From the NCBI RefSeq assembly GCF_024398035.1, contig NZ_CP073748.1, forward strand, positions 3,649,001-3,713,000: DNA of 64,000 nucleotides, in the 5' to 3' direction. The stretch is from Kordiimonas sp. SCSIO 12603 (GTDB lineage Bacteria > Pseudomonadota > Alphaproteobacteria > Sphingomonadales > Kordiimonadaceae). A model generated the notes under the pieces. That model saw only the letters and a program-made list of their open reading frames with translations, ran no database searches and was not told the DNA's origin. Made by a program: the position numbers and the translations under genes. Positions within the stretch are counted from its first letter, which is position 1. Every line of letters begins with the position of its first letter. Shown here in pieces: positions 18,668 through 20,070 of the stretch.

Positions 18668-18823
18668 CAGGCAAGCCTTTCCCTGCTGGGCCATATATGC
18701 CCGGCAGCTTTCACCATCCATGATACGAGCTTGATCAAAACCCCAGTATTCCAACCATTTCAAAACTGGCACAGCAGTTGCTCTTAATGTTCCAAACGTA
18801 ATCACCCTGTGATGGAGCAACCA

Positions 18824-19051
18824 ATGCAACAAGAGCAATTACCTTTCGACCCGAATGTCTACTATGGTATCGTCGCTGATAACCTACTGAAGAACCTTGG
18901 TCCAAAGGCACTGCACTATGCAGATCATGCTCTGGCAAAAATGAAATCACTCGGTGATGAAAAAGGTTTGGATATCTGGCTTAATATTCATGAACACTTG
19001 ATCATGCGCTCTATGCCAGAACATCACGCAGATACTGCAATGATCCACTAA
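18824..19051 (+). CDS. small hypothetical protein
   Basis: A 75-residue soluble protein I do not recognise. ATG 18824 has GGAG 6 nt upstream; in-frame alternatives are GTG 18809 and ATG 18812. It is mainly helical, with a central LLKNLGPKALHYADHALAKM segment and a helix IWLNIHEHLIMRSM near the C-terminus. No signal peptide is seen. A strongly structured segment with a terminator starts directly after its stop, so the mRNA carries a long folded 3' end. Confidence 0.7.
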   Translation: MQQEQLPFDPNVYYGIVADNLLKNLGPKALHYADHALAKMKSLGDEKGLDIWLNIHEHLIMRSMPEHHADTAMIH

Positions 19052-19176
19052 AAACACCCAGATACAGACAGGGCATCTCTCAGCACCCGGCACCCGAAGT
19101 CCTGTCTGTGACCGGAACATACCCAATTCCGGTCATAAGGCCCGCCCTTTCACCCAAGGGGCGGGTCTTTAACATT
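19052..19176 (+). ncRNA. candidate sRNA or 3'-UTR RNA with three hairpins and C-rich loops
   Basis: Three consecutive stem-loops: ACAGACAGG/CCTGTCTGT (19064-19072 with 19101-19109), TGACCGGAA/TTCCGGTCA (19109-19117 with 19127-19135, so the first two compete for one base) and GGCCCGCCC/GGGCGGGTC (from 19139 to 19167). The third is followed by TTTAACATTTT and acts as a terminator. CACCC recurs at 19055, 19084, 19091 and 19151, with ACCC at 19121, nearly always in predicted loops. Such C-rich loops in sRNAs often pair with purine-rich ribosome-binding sites. It could be a free sRNA, a 3'-UTR-derived sRNA, or only a stable mRNA end. Confidence 0.4.
19139..19176 (+). terminator. intrinsic terminator
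   Basis: A stem of about 12 bp including two G-T pairs (19139-19150 with 19156-19167), a 5-nt loop CACCC, then TTTAACATTTT. It is the end of the small-protein gene and of the candidate RNA. Confidence 0.75.
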
Positions 19177-19215
19177 TTACCCACACCTGCATAAAATTCG
19201 ACAATTATGGTGAAA

Positions 19216-19234
19216 CACTATTGAAAACATAGTG
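19216..19234 (+). promoter_or_regulatory. inverted repeat upstream of luxR-type gene
   Basis: CACTAT (19216-19221) and ATAGTG (19229-19234) form a 6-bp dyad with a 7-nt spacer, 50 nt before the GTG of the LuxR-family gene. TATATAAC near 19250 could be a -10. It may be an autoregulatory box. Support is only the symmetry. Confidence 0.3.
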
Positions 19235-19284
19235 CGCTAAAGGCTATTTATATAACTATGGGGGTCAGATAGAGATTGTAGAAA

Positions 19285-20070
19285 GTGCAATTAATTCATA
19301 GTTTTATTGAAAGCTTGGAGGCTTGCCAGTCAAATCTTCAAGTCTGGGAAGAATTCCTGGAATTTATTAGAGAGCGTAATTTTACACACGCTTCCTATAG
19401 CTACGGCTACGCCACCCGAGAAGTTCCTTCACACACTATTGAAGGCAGTTCTAATCTACTTCATGTGTCCTTAGCCGGTAAAAGCTGGATTACCAGTATT
19501 GATGCAACTGTTATTGAGGGATATCGAAAAAAACGCGCAAAAAATCTGGACCCAACCAGGAACTATCTTGTGTCACCTACATTGAAACCATCCTTTCACG
19601 GCAAAACAAAACTGGAACCAAACGACCCGTTCTATGACGTTCGTTTTGAATTCATGGATCATATGCATGAAAATGGCCTTCGTTCCTTTTTACTTATTCC
19701 TATCAAACATTTGTTTGGTCGTAATAATGCAGATGTCAGCCTTTTCTGTGATATGGAAGTAGAAGATTTAGAAAATCAAATCGCACCGTCGGCAGTAAAT
19801 GAATGCCATATTGCTGCACTTTACATGCATACGGTTTTCCAAAATCATATGCGCTATGTTTATGCCGAAGCACTTGGCATTAAGGGCAGACCATACGAAG
19901 TTCTGCAAAAGCTACATGCCGGTTACACCAACACACAAATCGGCGAAATGCTGGGCATGTCAACTCCCACTGTATCTTTTCATCTAAAGGAACTTCGAGA
20001 AACGCTTGATGTTGCATCAACACGCGAGATATTACCCACTGCCTTAAGGCACGGTATTCTGGATGGGTAA
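19285..20070 (+). CDS. LuxR-family regulator with autoinducer-binding-like domain
   Basis: A 261-residue transcription factor from GTG 19285 (an in-frame stop precedes it). Residues about 20-170 resemble the LuxR autoinducer-binding fold. Residues about 200-255 form a LuxR helix-turn-helix: LQKLHAGYTNTQIGEMLGMS, then TPTVSFHLKELRETL. No LuxI synthase is in the window, so it is a solo LuxR or a sensor of another small molecule. The N-domain is divergent and I cannot align the ligand-binding Trp/Asp/Tyr residues with confidence. It is upstream of tusA by about 85 bp. Confidence 0.75.
   Translation: MQLIHSFIESLEACQSNLQVWEEFLEFIRERNFTHASYSYGYATREVPSHTIEGSSNLLHVSLAGKSWITSIDATVIEGYRKKRAKNLDPTRNYLVSPTLKPSFHGKTKLEPNDPFYDVRFEFMDHMHENGLRSFLLIPIKHLFGRNNADVSLFCDMEVEDLENQIAPSAVNECHIAALYMHTVFQNHMRYVYAEALGIKGRPYEVLQKLHAGYTNTQIGEMLGMSTPTVSFHLKELRETLDVASTREILPTALRHGILDG

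Follow-up and report, generated by a model that had tools for sequence, protein, structure and literature searches.

The RNA NrsZ of Pseudomonas aeruginosa folds into three hairpins with C-rich loops, and the RNAs CsrB and RsmZ, which titrate CsrA, carry GGA motifs in their hairpin loops. Expression of NrsZ is described as sigma-54-dependent (PMC8395346). Small RNAs tied to flagellar sigma factors have already been described in Escherichia coli, where UTR-derived sRNAs are reported to be controlled by the flagellar sigma-28 (PMC10578931), and in Campylobacter, where CJnc230 (FlmE) of C. jejuni is reported to depend on RpoN and to arise by processing of the flgE mRNA (PMC11187230). Among the open-access titles and abstract openings that were listed, none concerns an sRNA under a flagellar sigma factor in the Alphaproteobacteria. 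Two flagellar regulators that bear on the present case are described in Caulobacter, namely FlbD, an activator of the flagellar sigma-54 kind (PMC3930126), and FlbT, a regulator of flagellin mRNA that is proposed to bind flagellin mRNA leaders (PMC4347634).

The locus considered here lies in a window of 64,000 nucleotides of the genome of the marine bacterium Kordiimonas sp. SCSIO 12603, and consists of a small gene and a three-hairpin RNA at its 3' end, for which no describing paper appears among the same titles and abstract openings. What is new in this locus is that the gene hosting the RNA has a sigma-54 promoter and an upstream palindrome that are common to flagellin genes. Comparison of sequences by itself yields a strongly covarying RNA family, a likely regulon and the exact loop residues to mutate, and because the family occurs in named cultured species (Kordiimonas gwangyangensis and Eilatimonas milleporae among them), the question of its role is directly testable.

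A three-hairpin RNA after a small gene

The RNA lies just 3' of the stop codon (19049-19051) of an uncharacterised gene for a 75-residue protein (MQQEQLPFDP..., 18824..19051, forward strand), an arrangement that an earlier, sequence-only reading of the locus had described correctly, and this gene is the sole open reading frame of the proposed transcript. Folding of 19064-19169 with RNAfold gives three adjacent hairpins at -56.2 kcal/mol (z -7.12), a stability attained by none of 200 shuffles. Hairpin 1 (19064..19109, forward strand) has an 11-bp stem (19064-19074/19099-19109) and a 24-nt loop region with UCAGCACCCGGCACCC at 19080-19095, hairpin 2 (19110..19134, forward strand) has an 8-bp stem (19110-19117/19127-19134) closed by the loop CAUACCCAA (19118-19126), and hairpin 3 (19137..19169, forward strand) has a 14-bp stem (19137-19150/19156-19169) with a CACCC loop. 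The sequence-only reading had proposed three stems of about 9, 9 and 12 bp, the last a terminator; the number of hairpins stands and the lengths are amended. Hairpin 3 is GC-rich and followed by a short U tail, and by this form it is a probable terminator, although a simple terminator scan did not include it in its list. ACCC does occur five times in 19052-19176, as had been counted, and four copies fall within the three loops, but the fifth (19056-19059), 5' of hairpin 1, is not conserved, with only two copies at that place across an alignment of 24 rows.

Of 296 genomes from the order, 46 encode a homologue of the small gene, among them all 29 that belong to the family Kordiimonadaceae, and an alignment of the protein (A3) contains 17 invariant columns over 20 rows. 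Its product is predicted to form three helices (mean pLDDT 83.5), has no match in Pfam or NCBIfam and matches in PHROGs at chance level only, and a search of PDB folds with the predicted model returned nothing at E <= 0.001.

Across 20 genomic contexts from the family, a bio gene lies upstream in 17, TusA, Alph_Pro_TM and TauE lie downstream in 19, and a LuxR-type gene separates the RNA from TusA in 4. These arrangements bear on the proposal that the RNA acts in cis, as a leader or attenuator, on the gene that follows it, which is LuxR-type here and TusA in most relatives. The RNA of the window does stand upstream of the next gene and on the same strand, as such a leader would, but the identity of that gene varies and the start of TusA is found anywhere from 0.4 to 3.3 kb from the small-gene start (19 of 20 contexts), and the RNA is nonetheless present in 19 of the 20 context genomes, linked to the small gene whatever lies beyond it. 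Since that neighbour changes, a leader function is disfavoured and must be regarded as very improbable. The LuxR-type gene of the window (19285-20070) has a match to an autoinducer-binding domain that is sub-threshold only, and the window further contains a bacterial small SRP RNA at 2262-2360 on the minus strand.

Covarying stems and nearly invariant loops

Covariation was assessed on two alignments. The first (A1) is a sequence-only MAFFT alignment of 21 RNAs, made with no structural fitting and excluding four loci, namely L003 (a sister genome, 99% identical), L006 (at a contig end), L017 (missing the third hairpin) and L019 (missing the RNA). It shows two-sided changes at 25 of 29 pairs, a level reached by none of 500 shuffles, and 91.6% of its cells are paired, as against 54-56% when the partner is slid by one column. 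The second (A2), of 24 rows with the window included and the copy of genome G016 and the weaker copies L056-L058 excluded, was fitted to the covariance model R1 and so leans towards the model; 96.1% of its cells are paired, and two-sided changes affect 27 of 29 pairs, comprising all 10 modelled pairs of hairpin 1, 7 of the 8 pairs of hairpin 2 and 10 of the 11 modelled pairs of hairpin 3. Chance hairpins are ruled out by the shuffle z-score together with covariation on both alignments.

The loops behave differently from the stem of hairpin 1. Nearly invariant cores are UCAGCACCC-CACCCA in loop 1, ACCCAA in loop 2 and ACCC in loop 3, and column identity is 0.88-1.0 in UCAGCACCC, in CACCC and in the A-N-ACCCAA of loop 2, the N excepted, whereas the two sides of the hairpin-1 stem average 0.60 and 0.56. 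Hairpin 2 has kept the sequence of its stem as well, with a mean column identity of 0.86-0.87 where stem 1 has 0.56-0.60. Over the 24 rows ACCC is enriched, at 4.79 copies per RNA versus 1.8 in dinucleotide shuffles, and 92 of the 115 copies lie wholly in unpaired columns; loops 1 and 2 each have the motif in 23 RNAs, and loop 3 has it in 20. The existence of a structured RNA whose C-rich loops are conserved is thus confirmed, and of the two observations that the sequence-only reading had named as counting against it, one, the absence of covariation or conservation in relatives, is excluded. Nearly invariant loops on covarying stems, in turn, suggest recognition of RNA or protein through the loops.

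Distribution within the Kordiimonadaceae

A BLASTN search with 18700-19300 matched 24 of 40 genomes, the Kordiimonas genome itself included, all from one family, and sister genome G016 is 99% identical to the window over this query. At E <= 0.01 model R1 finds the RNA in 28 of the 29 Kordiimonadaceae genomes, 27 of which are clear by score alone (>= 40 bits). The copy in G042 scores 26.3 bits, inside the range of 22-33 bits that is reached by secondary matches within family genomes and treated as background, and it was accepted on its position immediately 3' of the small gene and its retention of CACCC in both loop 1 and loop 2. In 27 of the 28 genomes the RNA is directly 3' of the small gene; in the other, G009, gene and RNA are split over two contig ends. 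The copy of G021 (locus L017) lacks the third hairpin. A DNA-pattern scan of genome contigs found 15 loci above 100 bits among 80 of 94 stretches, all from Kordiimonadaceae/Kordiimonadales and including K. gwangyangensis, K. marina, K. laminariae and E. milleporae, with no convincing match at the remaining loci of these 80 stretches. Genome G022 (L226, L019) has kept the small gene and its sigma-54 site and has no RNA, with other predicted hairpins 3' of the gene instead. The RNA is therefore dispensable there, and this gene without an RNA provides a natural comparison for the RNA's role.

Beyond the family, 267 genomes of the order were searched with R1, and 38 gave matches at E <= 0.01, the best at 36.1 bits. 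Three of the 38 were inspected by alignment: in L062 and L063 it is mainly the terminator-like hairpin that aligns, and in L061, the 36.1-bit match, a C-rich loop is in addition aligned over stem 1, without the UCAGCACCC core. In 385 genomes of the class, a search at E <= 1e-4 returned the Kordiimonas genome itself and one 33.9-bit match, which was rejected as chiefly a terminator-like hairpin without the UCAGCACCC core. Following small-gene homologues of families f2, f4, f6 and f7 (15 loci), no RNA was found either by eye or by model, and a sixteenth locus, from family f5, where the protein match is not reliable, gave no model match. The RNA is found only in Kordiimonadaceae, with no convincing copy outside among the genomes searched.

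In agreement with the sequence-only reading, which recognised no known family, no Rfam family reaches its gathering score at the RNA, which is new to Rfam. Two models of alphaproteobacterial sRNAs, CC1840 (RF01521; 21.5 bits against a cut-off of 50) and BjrC68 (RF02353; 13.2 bits against a cut-off of 39), overlap weakly with hairpins 2-3 and were rejected as far below the gathering score.

The distribution also bears on another reading of the locus, in which the hairpins form a 3' untranslated region only, protecting the mRNA of the small gene and ending its transcription, with no action in trans. Such a role would suit the constant attachment of the RNA to the small gene (all 27 genomes with both on one contig), the terminator-like hairpin 3 and the finding that no sigma-70-type promoter is predicted just 5' of the RNA. 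Stability and termination need stems, yet it is the loop cores that are invariant while stem 1 drifts with compensation, and in four other families of the order the small gene (15 loci) has no model match nearby. A role as 3' untranslated region only is accordingly judged improbable.

A promoter shared with flagellin genes

The consensus of sigma-54 promoters is TGGCAC-N5-TTGC. Upstream of the small gene lies the predicted sigma-54 promoter TGGCACAGCAGTTGCT (18767..18782, forward strand), which scores at least 10 of 11, preceded by the palindrome GGCAAGCCTTTCC (18670..18682, forward strand), a presumed sigma-54 activator site with one mismatch to GGCAA-N3-5-TGCC, and beside the palindrome is a second half-site, CCGGCA (18701-18706, forward strand). 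The sequence-only reading was silent on both promoter and palindrome. A site scoring at least 10 of 11 is found in all 21 small-gene upstream regions considered (one from the window and 20 from further genomes of the family, sister G016 having an entry of its own), and only 8 other sites of such score occur in the 616 kb of 20 context loci, both strands included. With at most one mismatch, the palindrome lies within 150 nt upstream of the small-gene promoter in 19 of the 21 regions, as against 2.5 in shuffles, and 2 of the 21 have no palindrome even at this stringency; exact copies number 8 of 21, versus 0.05 in shuffles. In other families of the order (L094-L110), a sigma-54-like site, often TGGCCC and of lower or equal score, precedes the small gene, and the RNA model finds nothing there.

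The same two elements were sought at flagellin genes, of which 67 were sampled by regular expression in 40 stretches; 20 family genomes supplied 64 of them and two other families the remaining 3. At a looser score (>= 9), a sigma-54 site precedes 64 of the 67 (62 from the family, 2 from elsewhere). Palindromes with at most one mismatch accompany 40 of these 64 flagellin promoters, versus 3.95 in shuffles, at -18 to -142 from the promoter, and exact palindromes 14 of 64, versus 0.2; the other 24 promoters have none even at one mismatch. As a composite pattern, GGCAA followed after 68-98 nt by TGGCAC-N5-TTGC has 65 matches in 25 of the 29 family genomes and its reversed counterpart 14, in a count that was summed by hand and in which a few promoters matched twice. 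Among the 28 composite loci listed, 8 belong to the small gene, 5 to flagellins and 5 to GGDEF proteins, and 10 have no evident flagellar link; judged by the coordinates of flagellin matches, further composite sites fall directly 5' of flagellins. The GGDEF proteins (diguanylate cyclases, Pfam-confirmed) with this GGCAA/sigma-54 pair are those of L299, L304, L317, L321 and L325.

Within the Kordiimonas genome itself, strict sigma-54 sites number nine against five in the reversed control, and include those of the small gene and one flagellin. The palindrome alone, at one mismatch, is common in this genome (123 matches versus 50 in the control), so it is its position by a promoter that counts. 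One of the strict sites, L235 (G000:C1:3297070-3297085), which recurs as L307 in the sister genome, has no open reading frame of at least 60 residues within 350 nt downstream, and the sequence that follows it forms, when folded, a hairpin whose loop is G-rich. Because the sigma-54 promoter and the palindrome at the small gene are common to flagellin genes, the transcript bearing the RNA is most likely part of the flagellar sigma-54 regulon.

Search for targets and a proposed mode of action

Pairing of C-rich loops with purine-rich ribosome-binding sites, as the sequence-only reading had proposed, is not supported so far; of that interpretation it is the structured RNA with C-rich loops that is supported. 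CACCC complements GGGUG and not the AGGAG core, and the loops pair with the 67 flagellin leaders at a mean duplex energy within 0.7 kcal/mol of that of shuffled loops. Prediction of targets with the loops, another suggestion of the earlier reading, gave no convincing conserved target either in these leaders or in 59 ortholog groups around the flagellar cluster, where the top candidate was rejected since its starts were not aligned between genomes. Family-wide, complements of loop 1 with at most three mismatches were more numerous than in the reversed control among the matches listed, some of which are the RNA gene itself.

The flagellin leaders have a character of their own. They fold into hairpins with A-rich loops (CAAAA) at L347-L386, for example at L347 upstream of 1862, and AAA falls in a predicted hairpin loop in 59 of the 64 leaders with a sigma-54 site as a raw count; these A-rich loops are possibly the binding site of a flagellin mRNA regulator. 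Of the 67 flagellin start regions, 7 contain ACCC at any position, and the start region of one flagellin of the Kordiimonas genome itself (L347, start 1862) reads ACACCCAATG, which has the letters of loop 2 in several relatives and not their complement.

The main rival to base pairing is that the RNA serves as a decoy, its ACCC loops binding an RNA-binding protein that would be titrated during flagellum assembly. The recurrence of one short motif in all three loops of most members (23, 23 and 20 of 24) is what such a decoy would display, as is the retention of stem sequence in hairpin 2, and a possible candidate protein is FlbT, the proposed binder of flagellin leaders (PMC4347634), which is encoded in 28 of 29 family genomes. 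Loop 1, however, is conserved over about 15 nt, beyond the need of a short protein motif, ACCC is missing from loop 3 in 4 of 24 RNAs, and a protein that binds the mostly A-rich loops of flagellin leaders would not obviously see this RNA; the specific proposal that flagellin-like loops act as a decoy for FlbT was rejected because those leaders do not generally carry ACCC loops. Titration of a protein is, in sum, rather unlikely.

Base pairing through the loops is favoured instead, by analogy with CJnc230 and the UTR-derived sigma-28 sRNAs of E. coli, and on balance, with moderate confidence, the RNA is read as the conserved 3' end of a flagellar-regulon sigma-54 mRNA that most likely acts as a trans-acting sRNA. 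A flagellar sigma-54 activator, putatively of FlbD type, would bind GGCAA-N-TGCC and switch on flagellin genes and the small gene alike, and transcription would pass the 75-residue gene and stop at hairpin 3, to judge from the form of that hairpin. The three-hairpin RNA would then be retained or excised as a stable RNA, some 110-125 nt long, whose C-rich loops (UCAGCACCC-CACCCA, ACCCAA and ACCC) may pair with RNAs containing GGGU and so tune genes for motility or lifestyle during synthesis of the filament. Against this reading count the absence of a convincing target in the flagellin leaders and the 59 ortholog groups, the small gene without an RNA in G022, the flagellin and small-gene promoters that have no palindrome, and the 10 composite loci with no evident flagellar link. 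A bolder and more tentative extension is that the RNA is a family-specific checkpoint of alphaproteobacterial flagellum assembly, made together with flagellin through the same activator and sigma factor, whose near-identical ACCC loops might capture one RNA-binding protein or silence several mRNAs and thereby couple filament synthesis to, for example, c-di-GMP signalling, a coupling that is proposed because GGDEF proteins have the same promoter pair.

Comparison with known systems

The Kordiimonas RNA resembles CsrB and RsmZ in that a single short motif recurs from loop to loop, but the conserved motif is ACCC here and GGA there. NrsZ resembles it in its three hairpins with C-rich loops and in sigma-54 control, which is predicted here, and differs in its locus, which is beside ntrC, whereas the neighbours here are bio genes, LuxR and TusA. 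The sRNAs of E. coli are UTR-derived and under a flagellar sigma factor, as is proposed here, although that factor is sigma-28, and their description is not known to include a three-hairpin ACCC design (PMC10578931); no homology is claimed. In arrangement the RNA resembles CJnc230, which is described as following flgE and as having two stem-loops and a CCUU anti-SD sequence in a length of about 98 nt (PMC11187230). CJnc230 lies 3' of, and is co-transcribed with, a flagellar gene and has a conserved single-stranded pairing region (PMC11187230). The Kordiimonas RNA is similarly placed, after a gene with a flagellar-type sigma-54 promoter predicted from sequence, and its conserved unpaired loops may serve likewise for pairing. 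The two differ in that the host gene in Kordiimonas encodes 75 residues, the hairpins number three, the loops repeat ACCC, the bacteria are Alphaproteobacteria, and dependence on RpoN is predicted from the DNA sequence.
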